64,000 bases of DNA from Ruminiclostridium herbifermentans (GTDB lineage: Bacteria; Bacillota; Clostridia; Acetivibrionales; DSM-1351): the NCBI RefSeq assembly GCF_005473905.2, contig NZ_CP061336.1:1348501-1412500 (forward strand), given 5' to 3'. The notes below the pieces were generated by a model. That model was given only the letters and a program-made list of their open reading frames with translations, did not search any database and was not told where the DNA came from. Positions 1,680-36,810 of this stretch are shown piece by piece; position 1 is the first letter of the stretch, and every line of letters begins with the position of its first letter. Both the position numbers and the translations under genes were made by a program.

Positions 1680-3509
1680 ATGGAAAATAAAATGTTTTGT
1701 TATCAATGTCAAGAAACTGCAGGCTGCACAGGATGTACCAATGTGGGTGTATGTGGAAAGTCACCAGAACTTGCTAAAACTCAGGATTTATTGATTTATG
1801 TTACAAAAGGCTTAAGTGTTGTTACAACTGCACTAAGAAATCAGGGAGAAAGTGTTTCACCAGAAGTAAATCATCACATTACACTAAACCTTTTCACAAC
1901 AATTACAAATGCCAACTTCGATAATGATGTAATTTATCAAAGAGTGCTAGATACTTTAAAAATCAAAGAAACTCTATTGAATAAAGTAACTAATAAGGAA
2001 AGCTTGCATCTAGCGGCATTGTGGAATGGTACTACAAAAGAGGAACTAGATGCAAAAGCTGAAACAGTTGGAGTTCTTGCAACAGGAAATGAAGATGTAC
2101 GAAGCCTTAGAGAACTTATTATATATGGAAATAAAGGCTTGGCAGCTTATATGAAACATGCTAACGAATTAGGTTATGACGACGATGCAATAAATGCATT
2201 TATGCAGAAGGCATTGGCTGCAACTTTAGATGATAGCTTAAGTGCCGATGATTTAGTAGCACTTACATTAGAAACAGGAAAAACTGGTGTGGATGGTATG
2301 GCACTTCTAGATACTGCAAATACTTCAACCTATGGCAATCCTGAAATTACAAAAGTTAATATTGGTGTAGGTAAAAACCCAGGTATCTTAATTTCCGGAC
2401 ATGACTTGAAGGACTTAGAACAGCTGCTTGAACAAACACAGGGCACAGGAGTTGATGTATATACTCATTCAGAAATGCTGCCAGCTCACTACTATCCAAA
2501 ATTCAAGAAGTACAGCAATTTTGTAGGTAACTATGGAAATGCATGGTGGAAGCAAAAAGAAGAGTTTGAAAGCTTTAATGGACCAATTCTTATGACAACA
2601 AACTGTATTGTACCTCCAAAGGAGTCATATAAAGCAAGATTATTTACAACAGGCTCAGCAGGCTTCACTGGATGTACTCATATAGGAAAGGACGAGAGTG
2701 GTCATAAAGATTTCTCTGCATTAATAGAAATGGCGAAAAACTGTCCAACACCTACACAAATAGAAGAAGGAGAAATCATTGGAGGCTTTGCTCATAATCA
2801 GGTTTTAGCATTGGCTGACAAGGTTGTAGATGCAGTAAAATCAGGTGCTATCAAGAAATTCTTTGTAATGGCGGGCTGTGATGGACGTCAAAAGGCTAGA
2901 AACTACTACACTGACTTTGCAAAAGCACTTCCAAAAGATACTGTAATAATGACTGCAGGTTGTGCAAAATATAAGTATAACAAGCTGGAACTTGGAGACA
3001 TTAACGGAATACCAAGAGTACTTGATGCAGGACAATGTAATGATTCATACTCCTTGGCAGTAATAGCACTTAAACTTAAGGAAGTATTTGGACTTGATGA
3101 TATTAATAAGCTGCCTATCGCTTTCAACATTGCATGGTATGAACAAAAGGCTGTTATCGTTCTTCTTTCACTTCTATACTTGGGAGTAAAGAATATTCAC
3201 TTAGGACCAACTTTACCAGCATTCCTTTCACCAAATGTGGCGAAGGTGTTAGTTGATAACTTTGGAATTGGCGGAATAACAAATGTAGAAGATGATATCA
3301 AAATGTTTTTAGGCGGTGAGGAAAAGACTGCTATTACAAAAGATATGATAATTGGCGATATTTTAAAAGCAAATCCTGATAATGCAAAAGTATTAATAGA
3401 AGCAGGAATGCATTGTCTAGGCTGCCCTTCATCACAAGCTGAATCATTAGAAGATGCTTGCAGAGTGCATGGGTTGGATGTTGAGGAACTGCTAAAAAAG
3501 TTAAACTAA
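1680..3509 (+). CDS. hcp: Hybrid cluster protein (hydroxylamine reductase) with C-terminal DUF1858-type domain
   Basis: The protein binds a 4Fe-4S cluster and a hybrid Fe-S-O cluster and acts in the cytoplasm; the family reduces NO or hydroxylamine. The N-terminal cysteine motif ([19 protein letters not shown], then VCGK) is the class with closely spaced cysteines. Later hybrid-cluster ligands are visible around [27 protein letters not shown] and AGQCNDSYS. At 609 residues it is longer than the usual 540-550. The extra C-terminal 55-60 residues form a DUF1858-like redox-disulfide domain with [10 protein letters not shown], which is often found as a separate neighbour of Hcp. An AAGGAG ribosome-binding site lies about 10 bases before the ATG. 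The gene is divergent from the Crp/Fnr regulator. Confidence 0.95.
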
Positions 3510-3563
3510 GAAACAGACAAATATGAATTGATAATATACTTAAAATAATAAGTATTTTTATGG

Positions 3564-3603
3564 AGACTCTCTAATTAGATTTATACTAAGTGGGGAGTCT
3601 TTC
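3564..3603 (+). terminator. Terminator after hcp
   Basis: AGACTC pairs with GAGTCT around a loop that contains CTAATTAGATT, followed by TTTC. The first part of this terminator recurs at 4084 (see the direct-repeat entry). Confidence 0.6.
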
Positions 3604-4100
3604 ATTTTGAATTAGATGAACATTAAACAAGTAGCCCAATAATTGAGGGGCGTGTCTATAAAATTGGACAAATTGGGACATTTGTTAAAATACCAAATGG
3701 AAATGTGATATCTTATGGACTTGTTTCTTCAGTAAGTAATACACCCTCTAAGTTAGTTGATAATGAATTGAAAATAAATGTTGGGTCAAGATATTTAACT
3801 GTTAATTTAGTTGGGGAAAAGATTGGAAATGCTCAATTTGAAAAGGGAATAGGTCTATATCCAACTATTAATGACGAAGTTCATATTGTACTAGAATTTG
3901 ATCTTGCAGATATATATGGTAAAGAAGATGTAACGTCTATTGAGATAGGAAAGCATTCATCATCTGACAAATTAGATGTTTTTATAGATATTCATAAGTT
4001 AATATTAAGGCATAGTTAATGAGAAGTATATAAATGAATTATATATTACTATAGCGCCATAGACATATTTAAATAGCAAAGATGACTCTCTAATTAGATT
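3566..4100 (+). repeat. Direct repeat bracketing the HerA-type remnant
   Basis: The 17-mer GACTCTCTAATTAGATT occurs at 3566-3582 and again at 4084-4100. In both places it forms the left arm of a hairpin ending in GAGTCTTT. The duplicated terminator brackets a broken foreign gene. This is what an insertion or recombination into the hcp terminator would leave. Confidence 0.55.
3627..4019 (+). pseudogene. Remnant of a HerA/DUF87-type ATPase (N-terminal HAS-barrel only)
   Basis: The frame is open from just after a stop at 3624 to the stop at 4019. It reads IIEGRVYKIGQIGTFVKIP and then SYGLVSSVSN, LTVNLVGEKIG and GIGLYPTINDEVHIV. This resembles the N-terminal barrel of HerA-family ATPases, including those paired with SIR2 in antiphage systems. 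The conserved part begins before any usual start codon; the first in-frame start is GTG at 3705 and has no ribosome-binding site. The frame stops before the Walker A motif, so the ATPase core is missing. The family call is from pattern memory. An unrelated small beta protein is the alternative. Confidence 0.5.
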
Positions 4101-4122
4101 AATTCTAGGTAGAGAGTCTTTT
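4084..4122 (+). terminator. Terminator after the HerA remnant
   Basis: A perfect 9-bp stem, GACTCTCTA (4084-4092) with TAGAGAGTC (4110-4118), is followed by TTTT. It is the partner of the hcp terminator described above. Confidence 0.65.
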
Positions 4123-4335
4123 ATTGCGTAACAAATAATATATGTTCTTTATGCGGACATGACTTTATAATTTTGTAATAGTGCATATACTCTTGAACAG
4201 GATAAAATGCAATTCGATATAAAATTGAGGAAATATCTCAAGAATTTATTGAAATTTAAATATATATTTAGTAATATGGATATAATATATTAAAAATGGA
4301 GAAAAAATCTCAAATTATATCTGGAGGCTAATACT

Positions 4336-5583
4336 TTGTTAAGTCAATTTTTATTTTCAAATTTTAAATCATTCAAAAAAGAGGCTTTTTTGGACTTTAC
4401 AGCTGAATCAATTAAGGATAACCTTGACAGCATAATTATTGATAAAATTGATGGAGAAAAGTTCTTACCAGTTATTGCGATTTATGGACCAAATGGTGGA
4501 GGTAAATCAACTGTCTTAGAAGCTTTAGGCTACTTAAGGGCTTTTGTACTAAAGAAGATAATTATATCGCAAATGTATGAAAATGATTCTACAAATGATG
4601 CAATTATAAAAAAGTTCTCAGATATTGATTTTAAAAATAAATATCATAAATTTGATTCAAAGTGTCAATATACACCTATAGCGTTTGATATTTTGTTTCG
4701 AACAAAAAACAAGCAATATAAATATCAACTTTCTATTTTGCAGAATAAGATTATTAAAGAAAACCTTTATATGCAAATTGTTGGAGAAAAGGACGCATCA
4801 ATTATATTTGAACGTTCGGAAAATGAGTGCGTTTTAGGTGAAGATTTAGAGGGTATAGCAGTTGAAAAAGTTAATAATACTATGCCATTGATTTCACATG
4901 TGGCTATAAACTATGATATTGAGTCAGTTGATGAAGCTGTTTCTTGGTTTATGAATATAAATTTCGTAGATTATGATAACCCTATTAAAGACCGGCAAAT
5001 AATCATTCCAAAGACTAATAAGGATAGATCACTGATGTTTCAAATGTTAAAAAAAATGGATATAAACATTTCAGACTTTCGTATTGAGAAGGATAGTGAT
5101 GGAAATATTGAAAAAATATATACCAAGCATACACTTGAAAATGGAGAAACTTATGAAATTCTTTTTGAAGAAGAGTCAAGTGGAACAAGAAAGCTTTTTA
5201 GCTGTTTAGCTAAGATTTTGGACTGTTTGGATGAAGGAACTTTAATGGTTGCAGATGAATTAGATGCAAAATTACATCCTAAATTGCTTAGATATATTAT
5301 TGAATTGTTTACAGATCCAAAGAGTAATAAAAAAGGAGCACAGCTATTGCTTACCTCTCACGATATTACAACAATGATTCCAGAGGTATTTAGAAGGGAT
5401 GAGATTTGGTTTTGTGCCTTAAACCCTCAAAACGCATCAAAATTATATTCTCTTATTTCATTTAAAAAGGAAAACGGTCAAAAACCTAAAAATGATGAGG
5501 TTTATGGAAAGCAATATCTTGAAGGTCGTTATGGGGCAGACCCATATATAAGAAAAATTTTGGATTGGGGGACAAAAGAATGA
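4336..5583 (+). CDS. AAA-family ATPase of an AbiL/RloA-type defence pair
   Basis: A 415-residue ATPase of the AAA_15/OLD-like type. The Walker A motif is GPNGGGKST at residues 51-59, a signature-like ESSGTRKLFS follows near 285, Walker B is VADELDAKLHP near 305, and LLLTSHD lies near 338. N-terminal LSQFLFSNFKSFKKE is the usual opening of this family. The start is TTG at 4336 with GGAGG about 9 bases upstream. The stop overlaps the next start (ATGA). An ATPase of this kind translationally coupled to an RloB protein matches the two-gene AbiL abortive-infection system (AbiLi/AbiLii) of Lactococcus and the RloA/RloB pairs of restriction loci. The antiphage role is inferred from family and context. 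Confidence 0.8.
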   Translation: MLSQFLFSNFKSFKKEAFLDFTAESIKDNLDSIIIDKIDGEKFLPVIAIYGPNGGGKSTVLEALGYLRAFVLKKIIISQMYENDSTNDAIIKKFSDIDFKNKYHKFDSKCQYTPIAFDILFRTKNKQYKYQLSILQNKIIKENLYMQIVGEKDASIIFERSENECVLGEDLEGIAVEKVNNTMPLISHVAINYDIESVDEAVSWFMNINFVDYDNPIKDRQIIIPKTNKDRSLMFQMLKKMDINISDFRIEKDSDGNIEKIYTKHTLENGETYEILFEEESSGTRKLFSCLAKILDCLDEGTLMVADELDAKLHPKLLRYIIELFTDPKSNKKGAQLLLTSHDITTMIPEVFRRDEIWFCALNPQNASKLYSLISFKKENGQKPKNDEVYGKQYLEGRYGADPYIRKILDWGTKE

Positions 5584-26530: not shown

Positions 26531-26707
26531 TATATAAGTGTTTATCAGATGATTATTATAAATTATTTGCATTAATTCCATTAAAAAATAAAATTAATTG
26601 ACAATTTACAGTAAAAAGATATAATAGAATCATAAGTAATTATGTACAAAAATTCTAAAAAATAACAAATTGGAGTGTTGTAAATCGATGTAAGGAGGAA
26701 TATTTTT

Positions 26708-27319
26708 ATGACAATGCAAATAAATAATACATACAAGGAGTGTAGTTCATTTACTGGAACAGTTGAAAATTGTGGTGACAAGTCAGTTAATGTTGTTTCA
26801 AAAGAACAATATTTAAACCAACTCTCAAAAAAATTTCCTGATGTTAACTTAATAGAAGGAACATATCGCCAAGGAACGATGTTTGGTCCTAAAGGTCAAT
26901 GTAATATTATGATTTCTCCTGTAATTCTGGGAAAGATGTCAAGAGATCCTGAAGTTGCATCGAAAATTGAACAAATTATCAAAGACATTCCGAGAGAAGA
27001 ACAAATTTTTAGGGCAAAGTGTAGCAGTGCTGGGATGAACGTTGTATCAAGTGGAACTATAATTGATGCAAACGGAGGAGTTTCAGGATATTGCTTTACT
27101 ACAAGAAAAAGCGAAGGAACTTCAGATAATAGAAAAAAAGATAAGACTGAAGCTACTAAAAGTTATAGATTGAATCAGAAGCGGAAAGCGGACGAAGAAT
27201 TGCAAAAAGCAATAAGAAAAAATCTTGAAGAAAAAATCCAAGAACAAAAAGCATTGCAACAATACAATTCATCACAATTATATGTGCCCAATAGCTATAA
27301 ATTTTTTAAACAAGAATAG
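26708..27319 (+). CDS. DUF6033-like protein
   Basis: A 203-residue soluble protein with a Ser/Thr/Asn-rich start, then YLNQLSKKFPDVNLIEGTY near 38, NIMISPVILGKMSRDPEVASKIEQIIKDIP near 68, NVVSSGTIIDANGGVSGYCF near 112 and a charged, coiled-coil-like tail. The PDVN, ISPxxLxKMxxDP and GTxIDANG features match small clostridial proteins annotated DUF6033, whose function is unknown. The assignment is from memory of the family pattern. A strong AAGGAGGAA site precedes the ATG. It lies 118 bp before the peptide precursor gene, but nothing shows that it belongs to that cluster. Confidence 0.65.
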   Translation: MTMQINNTYKECSSFTGTVENCGDKSVNVVSKEQYLNQLSKKFPDVNLIEGTYRQGTMFGPKGQCNIMISPVILGKMSRDPEVASKIEQIIKDIPREEQIFRAKCSSAGMNVVSSGTIIDANGGVSGYCFTTRKSEGTSDNRKKDKTEATKSYRLNQKRKADEELQKAIRKNLEEKIQEQKALQQYNSSQLYVPNSYKFFKQE

Positions 27320-27437: not shown

Positions 27438-27647
27438 ATGGCTAATATCAAATTGGGTAAGAAAAATAATTTTGAGAATGGAACATTTATGGCATATGCT
27501 TGTAACTGTAATTGTTTCTGCTATTGCAGTGCATGTAATAACTGCAATACAAAAACACCAACTGCCACAGGATCATATGCATTGAAATTTGCAAATACAA
27601 CCACAAACGATACAAAATCATTTACAGTACCAGCATTGCTTGGATAA
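27438..27647 (+). CDS. Cys-rich RiPP precursor peptide
   Basis: ATG at 27438 follows an ideal AAAGGAGGTG site. The 69-residue peptide has a basic leader (MANIKLGKKNNFENGTFMAY), then seven cysteines at 22, 24, 26, 28, 30, 33 and 36 (spaced CxCxCxCxC, then xxC twice). A 33-residue Thr/Ala/Asn tail without cysteine ends TVPALLG. It lies directly upstream of a radical SAM/SPASM maturase, as in the clostridial CLI_3235/Cys-rich peptide families. Cysteine sulfur-to-carbon crosslinks (sactipeptide or ranthipeptide type) are expected, with acceptors probably in the Thr/Asn-rich tail. The modification, the leader boundary and any activity are inferred. Confidence 0.85.
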   Translation: MANIKLGKKNNFENGTFMAYACNCNCFCYCSACNNCNTKTPTATGSYALKFANTTTNDTKSFTVPALLG

Positions 27648-27979
27648 GCAGATAAGCTTCTAGTCATTAATGACTTAAATTTAAACATATACATATTATA
27701 AAGCTGCCTGCCTTTCGCCTTTATCAATATCTATAACCACTAATTTCACACTATAAGTGTTGGAATATAGTGCTATGATTTTGGACAAAGATTTCTATGT
27801 TGAAGAAGAATTACGAATTTCTCTTGAAGCAAGTACTTTGAGTTTAAGGAGAGGCAGGCTATAATAATTTCTTTATACTTTGAGTTTTCAATCTCTGAGG
27901 TAATCTTTTTTTTTATTAAAGTGACTAATTTAAAATGAAAACTGAATGTAATTATAAATTGTACAAGGAGTATTTTAGT
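27648..27979 (+). other. Precursor-to-maturase intergenic region with inverted repeats
   Basis: A 14-bp perfect palindrome AGTCATTAATGACT (27662-27675) follows the precursor stop. GCCTGCCTTTC (about 27706-27716) is the near-perfect complement of GAGAGGCAGGC (27849-27859), enclosing about 130 nt. Such structure between a precursor and its enzymes often sets a high precursor to low enzyme ratio by partial termination or processing. There is no T-run, so it is not a classical terminator. A 29-codon frame at 27774-27863 has no good ribosome-binding site. Confidence 0.4.
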
Positions 27980-29416
27980 ATGCTTAGCTATATTCCTCAT
28001 ATTCACTTGATGGAATTATACGGTGAATATTATTTTTATGATGTTAATACTAATGCAATTGTATCCATTCCTTTTGAGACGTATGGATATTTAAAAGCAA
28101 TAGTTTCACAAAATACAGATGATTATGCAGAGGTGCCCGAAAAAGTTAGGGAAGGGATAGAGTTTCTTATTTCTCAGGGATTATTATCTCAGAAAAGCGA
28201 AGAATTAAAAATCCAACATACTGAAGCAAATATACTTGAAAATATGTACGAAAACAATCTAAGTACTATTACGCTTCAGGTAACACAAAATTGTAATTTG
28301 CGCTGTAACTACTGTGTTTATTCTGGAAGCTATCACAATAGAGTACATAATAATAAAAGAATGTCTTGGGAAACAGCAAAAAAAGCGTTGGATTTTTTCC
28401 ATAAGCATTCTAGCAATAGCAGAGAAATATCAGTAGGATTTTATGGCGGAGAGCCGTTGCTGGAGTTTAAACTTATAAAAAAATCTGTTGCTTATATAAA
28501 AGAATTATTCAATGGTAAGGACGTAATATATACATTAACTACAAATGCAACATTGCTTACTGAAGAAATGATTTTGTTTTTCTCAGAAAATAACTTTAAT
28601 CTGGTAATAAGTCTGGATGGACCAAAGGATATTCAGAATAAAAACAGAATCTTTGCAGATGAACATAAAGGTACTTTTGAAATAATTATGCAGAATTTGA
28701 ATAAAATTAGAAGCATAGATGAAAAATTTTATTCAAAAATTTCATTTAACGCAGTAATTGACTTAAATCAAGATTTCGCTTGTGCAAATGACTTTTTTAT
28801 GACTTACGATGAAATAAAGGAATTGCAGGTTACTGGAAACTATATTGATGATGCAAACCGCACAGATAGATACATTGTAAACGACCAATATTATGTAGAC
28901 TCTCAATATGAAATATTCAAAGTATTTCTATATTACTGCACAGATATATTTCGCATATATAAACCTAAGCTTCTAAATTCTGTAGTTACTTCTCTAAAAC
29001 ATGATATGTATGAACGGTTTATTGTCAAAGGGCAAAAGCAAAAACATTCTTCTCCTGGAGGGCAATGTCTTCCGGGAATACACAGACTTTTGGTTAATGT
29101 AGATGGCAAATTGTATCCGTGCGAAAGGCTCAACGAAAGTTCAGATGTGCTATGTATAGGAGATATAGATAATGGTTTTGATATTCAAAAAGCTAAAAAT
29201 ATATTAAATGTAAGTAGCATTACAGCTGAACAATGCAGGAATTGTTGGGCATTTAAACTATGTGAGCAATGTGTATCATTGGCTGAGGAAGAAGGAGAAC
29301 TTTCTAAAACAAGAAGACTATCTATATGCAACAGTATGAGAAATTCTCAGGAACAAAAAATAAAAAATTATATTACTCTAAGAAAATATGGATGTAATTT
29401 TGAAAAACTAGATTAG
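27980..29416 (+). CDS. Radical SAM/SPASM peptide maturase (CcpM-like)
   Basis: ATG at 27980 (MLSYIPHIHLMELYGEYYFYD) is preferred because AAGGAG lies eight bases upstream; an in-frame ATG at 27935 has none. The 478-residue enzyme has an N-terminal RRE-like/PqqD-like region (about 1-80), the radical SAM motif CNLRCNYC near 107-114, GFYGGEPLLEF near 155, and a C-terminal SPASM region with LLVNVDGKLYPCER near 378, then CRNCWAFKLCEQC near 420 and a final Cys near 455 for auxiliary iron-sulfur clusters. It should install thioether bonds on the cysteine-rich precursor just upstream. It resembles the clostridial Cys-rich peptide maturase family (CcpM) as I remember it. Confidence 0.9.
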   Translation: MLSYIPHIHLMELYGEYYFYDVNTNAIVSIPFETYGYLKAIVSQNTDDYAEVPEKVREGIEFLISQGLLSQKSEELKIQHTEANILENMYENNLSTITLQVTQNCNLRCNYCVYSGSYHNRVHNNKRMSWETAKKALDFFHKHSSNSREISVGFYGGEPLLEFKLIKKSVAYIKELFNGKDVIYTLTTNATLLTEEMILFFSENNFNLVISLDGPKDIQNKNRIFADEHKGTFEIIMQNLNKIRSIDEKFYSKISFNAVIDLNQDFACANDFFMTYDEIKELQVTGNYIDDANRTDRYIVNDQYYVDSQYEIFKVFLYYCTDIFRIYKPKLLNSVVTSLKHDMYERFIVKGQKQKHSSPGGQCLPGIHRLLVNVDGKLYPCERLNESSDVLCIGDIDNGFDIQKAKNILNVSSITAEQCRNCWAFKLCEQCVSLAEEEGELSKTRRLSICNSMRNSQEQKIKNYITLRKYGCNFEKLD

Positions 29417-29433
29417 AGGAAGGTATAGAAAAT

Positions 29434-30531
29434 ATGAAGGTAATGGTTTTCCCATATGATTTTGAATTTTTGCCGATATTTAAAAACAGACATTTGTTAA
29501 AAGATATTATTATCAAGTATCTAGTTTCACCGAGTGGCTTTGGGCTTACGGGTAAGGATGGATGCTTCTTTAATAATGAAATTGATTCAGGTATTATAAT
29601 ACAGGATCATATGACTAAAGAAGATTTAATGGATATAGATGCTGTTTGGCTTACTGAATCTTTGAACAAGCTTAATGATGAAGAAATTAAGACAACTATA
29701 AATACTATAGGACAGTATGCTAAGCAGATAATATATACACCTAACGGAGACAAAGAATTTGAACAGAATATAAATGAGTTATGCAAAAAATATAATTTAA
29801 AAGTGACTATGCCAAGGGATTATATAGATTTATATAAACTAGTAGATGAAAGAACTATTGTGAGTTCATTTACATTGCGAAAATTCGAAACACCTGTTAT
29901 TACTGTGTTAGGTATATGCGGAATGACACAGAAATTTGATATTCAGCTTTATCTAAGAAGCCATTTTTTAAAAAATGGATATAAAGTCAGTCAAATAGGA
30001 ACAAAACAAGCATGTGAGATTCTAGGATTTCATTCTATACCTGATTTTCTTTTTGAAAAAAATTATTCTGAAGTTGAAAAGATTTTAAAATTTAACTCTT
30101 TCATCAAAGAAATTGAGAAAAAAGAAAAGCCAGATCTGATTATTATAGGTGTGCCAGACGCTATTATTCCGCTGAATCGAAAACATCATCTGGGGTTTGG
30201 AATACCAGCTTATGAAATATGCAGCGCAATTCAATCTGATTTTTCAATATTATCAATGTTTAATGGGGAATACAGCAATGACTTTTTTGATGAGATGAGC
30301 AAAGTTTGTAAGTATAGGTTAAATATTGAGCTGGATGCTTTTTTTATTTCAAATTATACTCCTATATCAAATTCCTTGGATCAGGAAAATCTTGTGTTTA
30401 CATATACAAAAGGCACTGAGAAGATTAATGACAGGTACCCAATATATAATGTTCGTAATTTGAATGATGATAAGCTTTTTAATCATGTGGTTAAAAAATT
30501 AGCTATGTATGGTGAATTCAGCGTAATGTAA
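29434..30531 (+). CDS. Peptide maturation system protein (TIGR04066-like)
   Basis: A 365-residue soluble protein beginning MKVMVFPYDFEFLPIFKNRH. Mid-protein it has ITVLGICGMTQKFDIQLYLR near 154, NGYKVSQIGTKQACEILGFHSIPDF near 183, PDLIIIGVPDAIIPLNRKH near 232 and FGIPAYEICSAIQSDFSILSMFNG near 255. The ICGMTQKFDIQ loop resembles a nucleotide-binding start without a full Walker A. Proteins of this kind accompany Cys-rich peptide maturases in Clostridia and were annotated as TIGR04066 family; their biochemistry is unknown. It is 17 bp downstream of the maturase with its own AGAGGAAGG site. Confidence 0.75.
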   Translation: MKVMVFPYDFEFLPIFKNRHLLKDIIIKYLVSPSGFGLTGKDGCFFNNEIDSGIIIQDHMTKEDLMDIDAVWLTESLNKLNDEEIKTTINTIGQYAKQIIYTPNGDKEFEQNINELCKKYNLKVTMPRDYIDLYKLVDERTIVSSFTLRKFETPVITVLGICGMTQKFDIQLYLRSHFLKNGYKVSQIGTKQACEILGFHSIPDFLFEKNYSEVEKILKFNSFIKEIEKKEKPDLIIIGVPDAIIPLNRKHHLGFGIPAYEICSAIQSDFSILSMFNGEYSNDFFDEMSKVCKYRLNIELDAFFISNYTPISNSLDQENLVFTYTKGTEKINDRYPIYNVRNLNDDKLFNHVVKKLAMYGEFSVM

Positions 30532-30542
30532 GGAGAATAGAA

Positions 30543-30812
30543 ATGGACAGGAAAAAGATTGAAGACTCATTAAATAAGATATTCAAAGAAAAATTTCTTA
30601 TTGATATGAAAAAAGTGCCGGATAGACAGAAAGAATGCAGCTTATTAGATAAAGAGTTTGGACTTATGCCAAGGGATCTAATTGTTTTATTTTTTGAATT
30701 GCAAAAGGTTTTTAATGTAGAATTTCAAGAAGAGGATATTACCAATACCAGATTTGATTATTACTATAATATTATTGATATAATTTATAAAAAGCAAGCA
30801 TGTGCTTGTTAG
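30543..30812 (+). CDS. Acyl-carrier-like protein of the peptide system, attachment serine absent
   Basis: An 89-residue, mostly helical protein with the acyl carrier pattern LLDKEFGLMPRDLIVLFFELQ followed by FNVEF. Aligning the helix-II region (ELQKVFNVEF with eLEeeFgieI of carrier proteins) puts the canonical D-S-L at M-P-R. The serine that would carry phosphopantetheine is therefore not there. It may serve as a binding or scaffold module rather than a thioester carrier. It matches the acyl carrier-related proteins known from clostridial peptide maturation clusters (TIGR04069 as I remember it). It ends in ACAC, two terminal cysteines. AAGGAG precedes the ATG. Confidence 0.75.
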   Translation: MDRKKIEDSLNKIFKEKFLIDMKKVPDRQKECSLLDKEFGLMPRDLIVLFFELQKVFNVEFQEEDITNTRFDYYYNIIDIIYKKQACAC

Positions 30813-30830
30813 TATTTTTCAGGAGCAGTT

Positions 30831-32297
30831 ATGGCGGATAAAATACATATTGCAATATTGGATGACGGAGTAGTTTCTGGTGTTTATGTAAATATTGAAA
30901 ATAGCTTATATGTTGATGAAGAAAATAACATTAGGCAGTACACAAATCACTCAGAAACGATATCACACGGAACGATTTGTGCTATTGTTTTAAAGAGTTA
31001 TGCTCCAGATATATTACTTAGCAGTATAAAAATTTTACAGTCAGAAGGCATAGGGCGAATTGAAAAGCTTTATCCAGCTTTGCAATGGTGTCTAGATAAT
31101 AATGTGAAAATTGTTAGTTTAAGTCTTGGAAGTACGCATTTTATGGATTATGCCTTGATTAGGTCTATTATTAATGATTACACCAACAAGGGCATAGTTA
31201 TTGTCAGTGCGGGTTCTAATAGTGGATATACTTCGTACCCCGCTTATTTTTCAAATGTAATAGGTGTTGCATCTTGTAGCAATGAAGTTACAGATAGATA
31301 CTACAATTTCGTTTCGGACATTCACACAGGTATTGACATAGAGGCTGTTTCTTTCTGTGGAATAACTATAAATAATCAAAAAATAGATATTCCTAGAAGT
31401 AATAGCTATGAAGCACCGTTTATTACTGCAAAGGTATCTGAAATAATCAGTAGCAATCCTTTTTTATCAATATATCAAATTAAGAAAAAGTTAATTCAGT
31501 ATTCTGCAAATTTTAATGATACAGTCAAAATATGTAATAATCCAGATTGGATTTCTTGTGCGTATATTTCTGATAAAACAAAGCTAAAAAGTAAAGCAAG
31601 CTTATATTTCACTTCTTTTACAGAAAGTAATTATCAGCATGTAAAAGATAAAGTGGATACCATCATTGTTTTTAGCCATCAAGATGTAGAATTCTATAAG
31701 AATGAAAACAAAAAGATTGTATACATTGGTGATGGCTATATGATAAATGAGGAAGAAATGATTGATTATTTTTGGTGTAGTGAGTACAAAAACTTACAGA
31801 TAGAGAATTGTAAAGATAAGAATTACTGTATGGATGTTCCTTTGATTATTATAAATTTAGACAAAAACATGGACGAATTATGGATATTGCAGAAATTAAG
31901 AAATCTGTTTGCGGAGGAAGCATATAATATCTATGCCTCAAGCGTTATAGCCCAGTGTGTTTTATACGATTTAGAATACATACCATTTAAGTACATTAAG
32001 TGTGAACATTTAAATAAAAAATTATTTCAGTTTCTTTGTGGAGAAGTATATTACAAAAAAGTAGATGCTGTTGTTATTGGGGCTAGCGGTAAAGGTGAAG
32101 TTTTAGAAAGATTTGCTTCTATTACAGATGCACAGCTTAAAGTAAACATAATAAAAACTGATACATATAAAGTTATGTTATGTGACAATATTGGAAATAT
32201 AGAGGCAATAGAATATGGAGATATGGATGAAACTGCAATAACATCGATTTACAGGCATATACATAATATGCTGATTGGAGAGGCAGCAAATGAGTGA
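30831..32297 (+). CDS. Subtilisin-like (S8) peptidase of the peptide cluster
   Basis: A 488-residue protein whose first 215 residues form a subtilase domain. Catalytic Asp is D11 in AILDDGVVSG, His is H46 in ETISHGTICAIV, the oxyanion Asn region is VSAGSNSGYTSYPA near 126-138, and Ser is S192 in SNSYEAPFITAKV, replacing the usual GTSMATP. There is no signal peptide, so it acts in the cytoplasm. The C-terminal 270 residues are unlike subtilases and contain GASGKGEVLERFA near 422. With no C39 domain on the exporter, this enzyme is the natural candidate for leader cleavage. It overlaps the exporter gene by 8 bp. Confidence 0.85.
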   Translation: MADKIHIAILDDGVVSGVYVNIENSLYVDEENNIRQYTNHSETISHGTICAIVLKSYAPDILLSSIKILQSEGIGRIEKLYPALQWCLDNNVKIVSLSLGSTHFMDYALIRSIINDYTNKGIVIVSAGSNSGYTSYPAYFSNVIGVASCSNEVTDRYYNFVSDIHTGIDIEAVSFCGITINNQKIDIPRSNSYEAPFITAKVSEIISSNPFLSIYQIKKKLIQYSANFNDTVKICNNPDWISCAYISDKTKLKSKASLYFTSFTESNYQHVKDKVDTIIVFSHQDVEFYKNENKKIVYIGDGYMINEEEMIDYFWCSEYKNLQIENCKDKNYCMDVPLIIINLDKNMDELWILQKLRNLFAEEAYNIYASSVIAQCVLYDLEYIPFKYIKCEHLNKKLFQFLCGEVYYKKVDAVVIGASGKGEVLERFASITDAQLKVNIIKTDTYKVMLCDNIGNIEAIEYGDMDETAITSIYRHIHNMLIGEAANE

Positions 32298-34056
32298 TAA
32301 AGATATTAAAAGAAAGCTTTTTGGCATAGTAAAAAGTAATGGAAAGAAGTTTTTTTTGATAATAATTTTTCTGATTGTATCCTCTGGTATAGCACTTGCT
32401 TTGCCACTTATAAGCAAAGAGATAATGGATAACGGATTTATAAAAGGCAATTTTAATGTAGTGATTTACTATAGTGGTATAACTTTATTTCTGGTGGTAC
32501 TGGACAAAGTAATTGAATATATAAAAGAAAAGATGCGTGCATCGTTGAAAGCGGAAATTACATATTCTCTTTTTGAGAAAGCATTTCGTCATTTTGAAAA
32601 AATTAAACTTTCTGAACTTAACAAAAAAAGTAATACAGAAATTTTAAATAATCTCCACAGTGACATATCAAATATTTCCATGCTGGCGGATAGTGTTTTT
32701 TTTATGGCTGTAACTCAGATATTTGATATTCTGGGGGGAATAGCAGGACTATTTATTATTAGTTGGGAATTAACTTTTATAGTATTATGTTTTATTCCAC
32801 TAAAAATATGGGCAGTTATGCTTCTTTCGAAAATTAGAAACAAAATAATATATGAATACATGCAGGAAAACTCTGAATTTGCAAGATGGTTTGGGGATAC
32901 CTTAAGTGGTATTAAAGAAATAAAAATATTTGGTCTGTTTAGTCATAAGATGAAGGAATTTGAACACAGTCAGAAAAAAATTGTAGGCATAGAGAAAAGA
33001 CTTACTATTCAGGAATCTGTAAACAATACATTTGACAAAATATTATTACAAATTCTAACCACTGCACTATATATTATAGGAGCGAAGATGGTTTTTAATC
33101 TTAATATTTCAGTGGGAAGTGTATTTACTTTTATAGCTTATAGCACGTATGTAATAATGCCTGTGTCCGCATTGTTTAATCTTAGCCTTATACTATCTGA
33201 AATAAGACCTGCTGCAAAAAGGTACTATAATTTTTTGAATATGGAGATGGAGACTGAATATAAAGAAGAGGCAGAAAATACTAAGTGTATTACTGCTGAA
33301 ATGAAATATACTCCAGAAATTACTTTTAGAGATGTAACTTTTTCATACGACAAAACATATGAGGTTCTTAAAGGCATCAGTTTTAGTATACATGCTGGAG
33401 AAAAAGTGGCCTTGGTAGGATTAAATGGGTCAGGTAAGACTACGATAATCAATCTTCTTATGCGATTTTACAAGCCTATTTCAGGAAGCATTCAAATAAA
33501 TGGAGTAGATATACGAAATATTTGTATAAATGAGTATCGGAAAAATATTTCTATAGTTACGCAGAACAGTTATTTATTTGATGATACTATAAAAAACAAT
33601 ATATGCCTTTATAAAGAAATTGAAGAGCAGAAATTTATACAAATATTAAAAGATTGCAATTTATATGATTTTTATTGTAGTATCCCTGAAGGCTACAAAG
33701 TAGGACAAGACGGGTGCCAGCTATCAGGTGGACAAAGACAGAAAGTTCTAATAGCGCGGGCATTGGCAACTGGAAACAATTTGATAATATTGGATGAAGC
33801 AACTTCAAATGTCGATATGGAAACGGAAAACCAGATTAATGAACTTATTAAAACAAAACTCAGAGAAAAAACGATACTTGTAATTTCTCACAAACCTAGC
33901 ATTTTGAAATATATGGACAAATGTATTGTGCTGAAGGATGGAAAGATAGATGCAATTGGAGTGCATGAACAGCTAATAAAAGAAAATCAGGTATATAGGT
34001 CATTTATACATACTGGTAGAAATGCTTACAATGTCAGTAAAAGTTTAGTCTACTAA
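32290..34056 (+). CDS. ABC exporter (fused permease and ATPase) of the peptide cluster
   Basis: ATG at 32290 has GGAG about ten bases upstream and lies inside the end of the protease gene. The 588-residue half-transporter has about six membrane helices (first near residues 17-40, last near 270-300). The ATPase has Walker A GLNGSGKTT near 378, signature LSGGQRQKVLIARAL near 480, Walker B LIILDEATSNVD near 501 and the switch His in ISHKPS near 535. It lacks an N-terminal C39 peptidase domain, so processing must come from another enzyme. It probably exports the mature peptide and may provide self-protection, as no other immunity gene is visible. Confidence 0.9.
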   Translation: MSDKDIKRKLFGIVKSNGKKFFLIIIFLIVSSGIALALPLISKEIMDNGFIKGNFNVVIYYSGITLFLVVLDKVIEYIKEKMRASLKAEITYSLFEKAFRHFEKIKLSELNKKSNTEILNNLHSDISNISMLADSVFFMAVTQIFDILGGIAGLFIISWELTFIVLCFIPLKIWAVMLLSKIRNKIIYEYMQENSEFARWFGDTLSGIKEIKIFGLFSHKMKEFEHSQKKIVGIEKRLTIQESVNNTFDKILLQILTTALYIIGAKMVFNLNISVGSVFTFIAYSTYVIMPVSALFNLSLILSEIRPAAKRYYNFLNMEMETEYKEEAENTKCITAEMKYTPEITFRDVTFSYDKTYEVLKGISFSIHAGEKVALVGLNGSGKTTIINLLMRFYKPISGSIQINGVDIRNICINEYRKNISIVTQNSYLFDDTIKNNICLYKEIEEQKFIQILKDCNLYDFYCSIPEGYKVGQDGCQLSGGQRQKVLIARALATGNNLIILDEATSNVDMETENQINELIKTKLREKTILVISHKPSILKYMDKCIVLKDGKIDAIGVHEQLIKENQVYRSFIHTGRNAYNVSKSLVY

Positions 34057-34284: not shown

Positions 34285-36750
34285 TTACATATCTCTATAG
34301 TAACTAAGATTTGCTTCTAAATCTGCATCAATTGGCTCATCTTTAAACATTTTGGAATATTTGCCTGCTAATGATTTTGCTGTTTTAGCCCAGGAGTTGT
34401 TCAATTGTGTTGCTAAGTCAGCGAATGCAGGCTGCTTTGCAAGTGTATTTCTCATTTCCTTTGGCAAAGGACAATAGCGGAACATAATAGATCTGACTAT
34501 TTTATTAAGTCGCAGTATACCTTTTGACTCATAATTTATCCAAGTATCATAGTCACTTGTGAAAATATCCTTCATCAGATTTCTGTTCTTCTGAATTTGT
34601 ACCTTAATCTTAGCTTTTGCATCCTCTGTTAAGTCATGGTTCTTTTTGTAGAATTGAATATAATCAGTATATTCAGAGGTTAAAGATTTCTCTGTTATAT
34701 CATTCCACGAAATTCCCATCATTGTACGGCAAAGCTCCCAACGGAAAGTACCGATAAGCTTCAACATAAGAACATCAATATTTTCATCTGTGAACGCAGG
34801 CAAAATGAATCTTCCAGGAGTATTTCTAGCTCTGCCTGTTATTTCCTGCCACATAGAACCACGTGAACCGAAGGTTGGCACAAGGATTATATCAGGTAAA
34901 ATTTCCTTCATAATCGGCTCTTTTTCAATTCCTTTAGATTCGTTTTTATACCAGATTTCTCTATAGAATACAGAGAAATCAACTTCTAGTATTTTTTCGA
35001 TAGCACGTTCTATTTTATCAGGAGTTAATACAGCTTTTTCCAAATCCCTAGTTATAATATCCTTATGCAGAATAGGGAAATAGCTGCTCATTTGTCCATG
35101 ACAAACCTTTTGATTTGTTTTAATCATATTATTTATTTCAAAGGATAATTTAGCATTATAATCATTATCGTAAGCAGGCTTGTCTTTGTCTGTAACAATT
35201 TTTCTTTTTTTCATATCTCTGAATAAGTCGTAATAGTCTTGTCCAAAGTCATTAATTGATGGATCCTTCTCGTTCCTGTATATTTTCTCTAACCATTCTT
35301 TAGTACTATAAATAGAGTACTTTGGACTTGATAAATCCTTATCACAGAGTCTGTATAATGCTATTGTTTGTTCCTTGGTCAGCAGGCGTTCATCCATATA
35401 TCCATAATTTAAGAACATATTGATTAGTCTAGGACAGCGTTGTTCTTCTTGAGACTTTTTAAAAACATCCTCATATATAACAAAAAAATCAGCTGAGAGA
35501 GAAGCGCGCAGTTCTCTAACTTCAGGGTCGGAAGATGTTTTATCCTTCAGCATCCTGAACTGGCTAAGTCTTTTATTTATGCTGTCTATAATATCCTGAG
35601 AGCAAGAGCAATATTTCAAAATTTTCTCAGTACTATTTTCTAATTCTTGAGGCAACTCATTGCCAACCACTTGAATATCATCAAGGCTAATAGTAGATTG
35701 TTTTATAGAAGTTTTTTCTTTAATAATATCATAGTAACCAAGTAAGTCAGGCGTATTTAAGTTTGTAAAACAGTCAAATTCATTTTGTAGCTTTTCTATA
35801 TTGTTTGACAGTGTTTCAAGAGCCTGCTTTAATATAGCTAATCCAGTTATTGCAGCTTCTTTGTCATCCTTTGAAGCAACAATTATTTTACCATAGGTTC
35901 TAATTAAGTTTTCGGATGAAAGATAAAGCAGGTCTATGTTTTTATATAATGTTGATAAAAGGTTTTTAGTACTGTTAATCAAAAGGTCAAGATAATCAGA
36001 ACCCTTTTGAATATGGTACTCACAAATAACATCATCGCAATTAAAGAAACCTTTTCGCTGCTCTAGAGGTACATTCAGTAGCCTTGAAAAATACTCAATA
36101 CTTGAGATGTCCATTTCAGATTCGTCTTCTTGGATGGCCTGAAAATCATATTTAGAAAACAAAGATTCGGAATCTAAAGGGAAGAATTTGTAATCGGAGT
36201 TTTTGGCATCATCGTAAATTTTTTTGTAGTTTTCAATACCTTCTAGATTGTCTTCGCTCTGAAAATAATATTTATCTTTTATCGCCCAATAATATACACA
36301 TAGGTTTTGAGTCAAAGTATTAATGCTCTCACATATTGGCAATAGCTTCTGATATGCAGTATAGCTTAGGTCTATTAGCGTTGCTAAAGAAGATACAATA
36401 TAGGTTGAATAATCTTTTTGAGTAGCAATAATATTTTTGATCCCTTTAATAGAAGTAGCTGGGAAACAATATAAATTACTTGCTTCTTTTGCCTTTAAAC
36501 TAAAGGAGCTTTGACCATTACGTATAATGTCATTAACACCTAAAAAAGTATTCTGATCAAGTGTAAAGAGTCGGCAATTCTTGGCTATAGCTGAACTGTC
36601 TTCTGTTGATAGATTCTCATATGGTGATAAGTAAACATCAATTTTTCCAGTGAGCATTAATATAATAGATGATATGCGTTCGCCTTCACATATTAGTTGT
36701 TCACCTTGCTTTCCTGAATATTGACCTGAATAATCCAATTTTATGCCCAT
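34285..36750 (-). CDS. Large cyclic-nucleotide-domain protein of unknown function
   Basis: The start at 36750 (MGIKLDYSGQYSG) has AAGGAG seven bases upstream. The 821-residue soluble product begins with a Crp-like cNMP-binding beta-roll (about 12-110: GEQLICEGERISSIILMLTG, then FLGVNDIIRN). The remaining 700 residues are largely helical, without a helix-turn-helix, kinase, cyclase or membrane motif that I recognise. A well-conserved-looking stretch lies near 615-670 (ILVPTFGSRGSMWQEITG, then ILPAFTDENIDVLM). It may be an effector or scaffold controlled by a nucleotide or another ligand. A structured leader (36811-36923) precedes it. Confidence 0.7.
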   Translation of the reverse strand: MGIKLDYSGQYSGKQGEQLICEGERISSIILMLTGKIDVYLSPYENLSTEDSSAIAKNCRLFTLDQNTFLGVNDIIRNGQSSFSLKAKEASNLYCFPATSIKGIKNIIATQKDYSTYIVSSLATLIDLSYTAYQKLLPICESINTLTQNLCVYYWAIKDKYYFQSEDNLEGIENYKKIYDDAKNSDYKFFPLDSESLFSKYDFQAIQEDESEMDISSIEYFSRLLNVPLEQRKGFFNCDDVICEYHIQKGSDYLDLLINSTKNLLSTLYKNIDLLYLSSENLIRTYGKIIVASKDDKEAAITGLAILKQALETLSNNIEKLQNEFDCFTNLNTPDLLGYYDIIKEKTSIKQSTISLDDIQVVGNELPQELENSTEKILKYCSCSQDIIDSINKRLSQFRMLKDKTSSDPEVRELRASLSADFFVIYEDVFKKSQEEQRCPRLINMFLNYGYMDERLLTKEQTIALYRLCDKDLSSPKYSIYSTKEWLEKIYRNEKDPSINDFGQDYYDLFRDMKKRKIVTDKDKPAYDNDYNAKLSFEINNMIKTNQKVCHGQMSSYFPILHKDIITRDLEKAVLTPDKIERAIEKILEVDFSVFYREIWYKNESKGIEKEPIMKEILPDIILVPTFGSRGSMWQEITGRARNTPGRFILPAFTDENIDVLMLKLIGTFRWELCRTMMGISWNDITEKSLTSEYTDYIQFYKKNHDLTEDAKAKIKVQIQKNRNLMKDIFTSDYDTWINYESKGILRLNKIVRSIMFRYCPLPKEMRNTLAKQPAFADLATQLNNSWAKTAKSLAGKYSKMFKDEPIDADLEANLSYYRDM

Positions 36751-36810
36751 GTTTTTTCTCCTTCTTTCCAGAATTATAAACACTACATTAATACGTATAT
36801 AATAAATCAA

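Follow-up and report, generated by a model that had tools for sequence, protein, structure and literature searches.

In the genome of Ruminiclostridium herbifermentans (NCBI RefSeq assembly GCF_005473905.2, contig NZ_CP061336.1) we analysed a stretch of 64,000 nucleotides, positions 1,348,501-1,412,500 of the forward strand, hereafter the window, in whose own numbering all coordinates are given. At 27438-34056 on the plus strand lie six co-directional genes: those for a precursor peptide, a CcpM radical S-adenosylmethionine (SAM)/SPASM maturase, a TIGR04066 protein, an acyl-carrier-related protein, a subtilase and an ATP-binding cassette (ABC) exporter, in the order and on the strand claimed by an original prediction made from the letters of this DNA. 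The short gaps or overlaps it described after the maturase are also found (17, 11 and 18 bases, then an overlap of 8 bases with the exporter ATG at 32290), and protease (30831..32297) and exporter (32290..34056) close the operon. Together these genes form a complete set with which to make a small Cys-rich modified peptide, that is, a ribosomally synthesised and post-translationally modified peptide (RiPP), trim it and export it, and clusters of this kind have been described before in other bacteria. Three of the proteins (precursor, maturase and TIGR04066 protein) score above their respective NCBIfam cut-offs, and the carrier-like protein fails its own; the system was filed under CLI_3235/CcpM by the first three and not by the fourth.

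The class and the partner set named in the original prediction are borne out by these NCBIfam matches and by two published clusters with the same gene set, which make the present one a fresh example of a described kind (the papers cited here and below were available in part, and statements on them are limited to those parts). The SacP23 cluster of Paenibacillus polymyxa #23 likewise holds a CLI_3235-family precursor, TIGR04068, TIGR04066 and TIGR04069 proteins, a subtilisin-like protease and an ABC transporter, but differs in an extra sigma factor gene, a further unknown gene and a listed gene order that is not the one seen here (PMC10731318). A five-gene cluster of Roseburia intestinalis L1-82, listed in 2015, has TIGR04068, TIGR04066, TIGR04069, a subtilase and an ABC transporter in the same listed order as here, but its authors saw no obvious precursor or immunity gene (PMC4573289). 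CcpM also appears in PMC9062424 as an annotated group, and CLI_3235 is mentioned in PMC7343975, citing Haft and Basu 2011. New here are a same-order ortholog in another bacterial family, six maturase loci in one genome, a shared leader with variable cores in the loci fetched, the fold link of TIGR04066, a degenerate TIGR04066-like half of the protease and a carrier-like protein without the pantetheine serine.

The precursor (69 residues, 27438..27647, +) starts at an ATG preceded by GGAGG and scores 30.6 bits against TIGR04065 (cut-off 26). It consists of a leader of about residues 1-20 (KLGKK...GTFMAY), a Cys-rich segment at 22-36, with the seven expected cysteines at residues 22, 24, 26, 28, 30, 33 and 36, and a Cys-free tail at 37-69. 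Since two other stop-to-stop frames in the window hold seven cysteines within 15 residues, Cys density alone is weak proof of a precursor. What sets it apart is its match to the family model, the ribosome site ahead of its ATG and kin with a similar start, namely the ortholog at locus L120, with which it has LGKKN-FE-GTFMAYACNCNCF in common (51% overall). To our knowledge the core resembles no known product. Its spacing CxCxCxCxCxxCxxC presumably resembles a metal-binding run, and the precursors of relatives carry 2 to 7 cysteines, the leader being kept while the cores vary (21 sequences). Spacing and varying number would both suit a Cys-rich segment that binds metal or forms disulfides, in which case CcpM would make few or no thioethers and the product would be a metal-binding or disulfide peptide. 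We consider this improbable given the adjoining full radical SAM/SPASM maturase with its conserved cysteines and the thioether maturases among that enzyme's best other models (see below).

The maturase (478 residues, 27980..29416, +) scores 522.5 bits against TIGR04068 (cut-off 500). At 27935, where the open reading frame as listed starts, a ribosome site is not evident; AAGGAG precedes the ATG at 27980, and the product from there opens MLSYIPHIHL where the ortholog opens MLKNIPHIHL. On account of the ribosome site and the matching start of the ortholog, the start should be 27980. The CxxxCxxC motif of the original prediction is present in 52/52 sequences, and seven further cysteines each in 50-52 of the 52, a conserved set of Fe-S cysteines. 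The N-terminal part aligns from residue 7 with 5wgg, which we take to be CteB with its leader-binding domain. Among the best other NCBIfam models for the maturase are the thioether maturases RumMC and PapB, neither above its cut-off, with cyclophane maturases as weaker matches scoring below these two. By analogy, sulfur-to-carbon crosslinks in the product are plausible. The cyclophane matches, together with the richness in Tyr, Asn and Ser of many relatives' precursors, would fit a CcpM that forms carbon-carbon (cyclophane-like) or other bonds and not thioethers; this too we judge very unlikely, as Cys recurs in the cores and RumMC and PapB outscore the cyclophane models.

An ortholog of the cluster lies outside the genus. 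The maturase shares 33-44% identity with the others of the genus listed and 61% with that of G219, a genome from a different family of the same class, whose locus L120 has the gene order of the window (precursor, CcpM, TIGR04066, carrier-like, subtilase, ABC) with identities of 61% for CcpM, 53% for TIGR04066, 45% for the carrier-like protein, 40% for the subtilase and 59% for the ABC protein. In a maturase tree of 52 rows the two are paired with support 100/100 and L126 (genome G026) joins them at 100/98, the tool warning of long branches that meet at this last node; the L126 precursor, MAKKTLGKKTVMQDGTLVAFSCSC..., belongs to the type found in the window. Judged by the labelled genes, the full gene order occurs only in the window and L120, of 53, and within the family of G219 (206 genomes) no other match with E up to 1e-90 exceeds 43% identity. 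This patchy spread suggests horizontal transfer of the cluster type. The GC content does not show such a transfer: it is 30.3% in the cluster and 32.4% in the window, with GC at third codon positions alike and no clear foreign signal. Plasmid records gave two matches to distant radical SAM genes at E < 1e-40 and none to TIGR04066, and thus no sign of a plasmid carrier. At 2084-4809 the same L126 locus also carries two divergent CcpM-like maturases in tandem, with a different small frame containing NGCGCGC nearby, a set that may represent another RiPP type.

In the R. herbifermentans genome itself (4.8 Mb), six CcpM loci exceed the cut-off, one of them with an inner stop, and four precursors exceed theirs. 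The copy with the inner stop (L042:5187-6416) is probably broken. A scan of genome contigs with the maturase protein as lone query found one distant locus. In the genus, a CcpM match was present in 11/11 genomes searched, above the cut-off in 10. Precursors were surveyed in 50 stretches, one of them a part of the window and 49 of them fetched loci; two of these loci lack CcpM, and L041 and L042 have 2 kb in common. A leader that roughly fits [K/R]-L-x-K-[K/R] ... [T/S]-[I/V/L]-x-A-[Y/F], followed by a Cys-bearing core, stands beside 46 of the 53 CcpM-model genes (43 from the pattern count, with L059, L129 and L124 from locus inspection), a description and not a blind test because the patterns were made after looking. 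At L122, L125 and L134 a single cluster carries 2-4 precursor frames with similar leaders. TIGR04066 lies near all 53 maturase-model genes, the carrier-like protein near 47, the exporter near 28 and the subtilase near 23, with counts shared between neighbouring clusters of one locus and a single subtilase that belongs to L041 as well as to L042.

The TIGR04066 protein (29434..30531, +) scores 295.1 bits against its model (cut-off 200) and gave a structure model, from 36 sequences, with a predicted local distance difference test score of 85.7 and a predicted template modelling (TM) score of 0.87. Foldseek aligned this model with DUF1611 structures over the whole length at 9-12% identity and a root mean square deviation of 6-7 Å (2g0t, E 6.5e-11; 2obn, TM 0.58/0.61; 7xrj, titled N-acetyltransferase DgcN, TM 0.51/0.55), with weaker matches also to other P-loop and Rossmann proteins. 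Agreement of the profiles was moderate: in hhalign, TIGR04066 matched two DUF1611 proteins at 68% (E 4.8e-5), or at 94% (E 7.9e-8) when query and target swapped roles. The P-loop lysine of DUF1611 aligns with K167, which like F168 and Q171 in the same P-loop-like motif (about 29911-29946, +) is invariant in 51/51 TIGR04066 sequences. The protein is therefore like the DUF1611/DgcN proteins in overall fold and in the position of the P-loop lysine, but unlike them in its low identity, in the residue preceding that lysine (Asn, Gln or His in 44/51, not Gly) and in having no Pfam DUF1611 match listed at E up to 1. The link is one of fold and profile, without Pfam membership; a sequence search of the PDB with the TIGR04066 profile reached a best E of 0.17. 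Because the P-loop lysine is kept, we infer that the protein probably still binds a phosphate ligand. At L134:2367-4721, beside a CcpM cluster, a family 2 glycosyltransferase is joined in one protein to a TIGR04066/DUF1611-like part whose P-loop is canonical (VGKFSSQ).

The subtilase (488 residues, 30831..32297, +; PF00082 at 1.6e-12) has its catalytic part in residues 1 to about 235, with D11, H46, N130 and S192 present in 20/20 sequences. The sequence opens at the catalytic fold, and a signal or pro-peptide is not evident. The best NCBIfam model for this part is that of QhpE (NF049966; 76.9 bits against a cut-off of 165, 1.3e-21), a likeness in how the enzyme would work and not family membership, the cut-off being failed. 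In the qhp operon the radical SAM enzyme QhpD makes crosslinks, the subtilase QhpE cuts the leader in the cytoplasm and QhpF is the ABC exporter (PMC7876137). The logic of crosslinking, cytosolic leader cutting and ABC export is shared, but in qhp an enzyme subunit serves as substrate, the QhpE model has 219 positions against the 488 residues here, and the available parts of that paper name no TIGR04066 or carrier-like partner. The earlier expectation that the leader is cut by the subtilase and not by a C39 domain fits these features and the exporter (588 residues, 32290..34056, +), a fused permease and ATPase (PF00664, PF00005) for which none of the 18 Pfam families listed is C39. A phage protease family in PHROGs also matches the subtilase (5.9e-21). 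Subtilases of the same family lie at L132:8557-9771 and L133:7924-9111, with CcpM absent from the fetched stretch; the genomes concerned, G002 and G006, have fetched CcpM clusters without a linked subtilase, so that these proteases may act in trans.

From about residue 241 (31551-32294, +) the protease continues into a half that matched no Pfam family at E up to 0.1. A profile of this half (14 sequences) matched TIGR04066 in hhalign at 96.7% (E 3.8e-10, score 79 over 251 columns), against decoy scores of 21.8 for the reversed profile, at most 18.8 for 20 column shuffles, 16.3 for the N-terminal part of the protease and 16.0 for a carrier-like profile, and by eye the order of strands and helices agrees between the TIGR04066 and protease models. 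The P-loop Lys and Gln are lost: at the matching residue, E349, and throughout residues 343-355, Lys occurs in at most 6/20 sequences per column. On these comparisons the protease consists of a subtilase and, fused to it, a degenerate TIGR04066-like half, which is probably a docking part. Direct comparison of this half with DUF1611 gave 0.5%, which speaks against a direct link, and its kinship thus runs through TIGR04066 only. A PDB sequence search with its profile reached a best E of 0.39, and the best 50 of 1277 Foldseek matches of the protease were to subtilisins on the catalytic part, none falling on the C-terminal half itself. The fusion is not named in the literature searched, which lay mostly outside subscription journals and was available in part.

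The fold link of TIGR04066 and the related half of the protease offer a lead on the chemistry of the product and on the roles of the helper proteins. They also argue against the published guess that TIGR04066 is the SacP23 immunity protein (PMC10731318), which fits poorly with a DUF1611/DgcN-like fold and a P-loop lysine kept in 51/51 sequences, and with a protein whose relative is fused to the protease and which lies near all 53 maturase-model genes, although none of this is a measure of immunity; we regard such a role here as highly improbable.

The carrier-like protein (30543..30812, +) scores 59.2 bits against TIGR04069 (E 4.1e-16), below the cut-off of 70; it occupies the same gene position as its relatives and aligns with them. 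In hhalign it matched eight AcpP of the genus at 75.7% (E 2.4e-5). The column of the pantetheine serine is occupied by Pro43 here and lacks Ser in 43/46 relatives, Ser being found in three. As this serine is missing, the protein is likely a binding module instead of an acyl carrier. One unknown PHROGs family matches it at 0.006.

Taken together, we put at roughly 80% the probability that this is a RiPP operon of the CLI_3235/CcpM kind that works by the following steps. The N-terminal part of CcpM would hold the leader, and its SAM radical chemistry would link a number of the seven Cys sulfurs to carbon atoms in other residues, which may lie in the Cys-free tail. TIGR04066 and the carrier-like protein would form a cytosolic maturation subcomplex, the subtilase, docked via its TIGR04066-like half, would remove the leader in the cytosol, and the ABC protein would export the trimmed peptide. 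Leader binding by CcpM, thioethers, QhpE-like cytosolic leader removal, ABC export and antibacterial use are here drawn from relatives. Several observations weigh against this scheme. The carrier-like protein falls short of its family cut-off. For seven of the 53 maturase genes no precursor was found (L042, L044, L056, L072 at a contig start, L136 and the two divergent L126 maturases). For 30/53 the scanned span holds no subtilase of the same family, so that a linked subtilase is not universal. No immunity gene was recognised. The thioether links of SacP23 are expected but, according to its authors, still to be elucidated (PMC10731318), and the available literature yielded no crosslink shown for a CLI_3235/CcpM-type member.

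When SacP23 was expressed in B. subtilis, the product showed a main peak at m/z 3404, was Edman-blocked and was active on several Gram-positive bacteria (PMC10731318). By analogy, an antibacterial peptide that acts on Gram-positive bacteria is the most likely product of the present cluster. The occurrence of CcpM matches in every genome of the genus searched and the lack of a recognised immunity gene would also suit a signal or development peptide; we think this rather unlikely in view of the variable cores, the patchy spread of the window's own type and the activity of SacP23. The blocked N-terminus of SacP23 (PMC10731318) would fit capping, but also crosslinking or cyclisation. In a speculative extension, which we find unlikely, TIGR04066 would be an active DgcN-like P-loop enzyme, and the N-terminus freshly exposed on the peptide would be capped (acylated) by it: the degenerate copy in the protease would bring both into one complex, the Ser-less carrier would present the peptide, and leader cutting and capping would be coupled.

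Between precursor and maturase, the intergenic stretch (27648..27979, +) contains an imperfect long inverted repeat (GCCTGCCT...AGGCAGGC); folding of 27648-27934 gave a weak signal (z -2.0, with 4/200 shuffles folding equally well). An Rfam search gave six matches, all under the gathering score, and scans for promoters and terminators showed no excess over shuffles, promoter-like sites in the region numbering 42 against 49.5 in shuffles. Upstream lies a DUF6033 gene (26708..27319, +; PF19498, 5.6e-19) for which the other 32 loci clustered gave no relative, and 5' of it a consensus promoter TTGACA-16-TATAAT (26598..26625, +; 12/12 match) that may also feed the RiPP cluster. The genes flanking the whole region, one presumably RidA-like and the other encoding 841 residues (34285-36810), are 7.9 kb apart here and about 65-90 bases apart in 4/4 relatives (L046, L049, L050 and L053), which have a different CcpM cluster slightly upstream, ahead of a presumably AzlC-like gene. 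The DUF6033 gene and the perfect consensus promoter sit on the extra stretch that these four relatives lack between the flanking genes.

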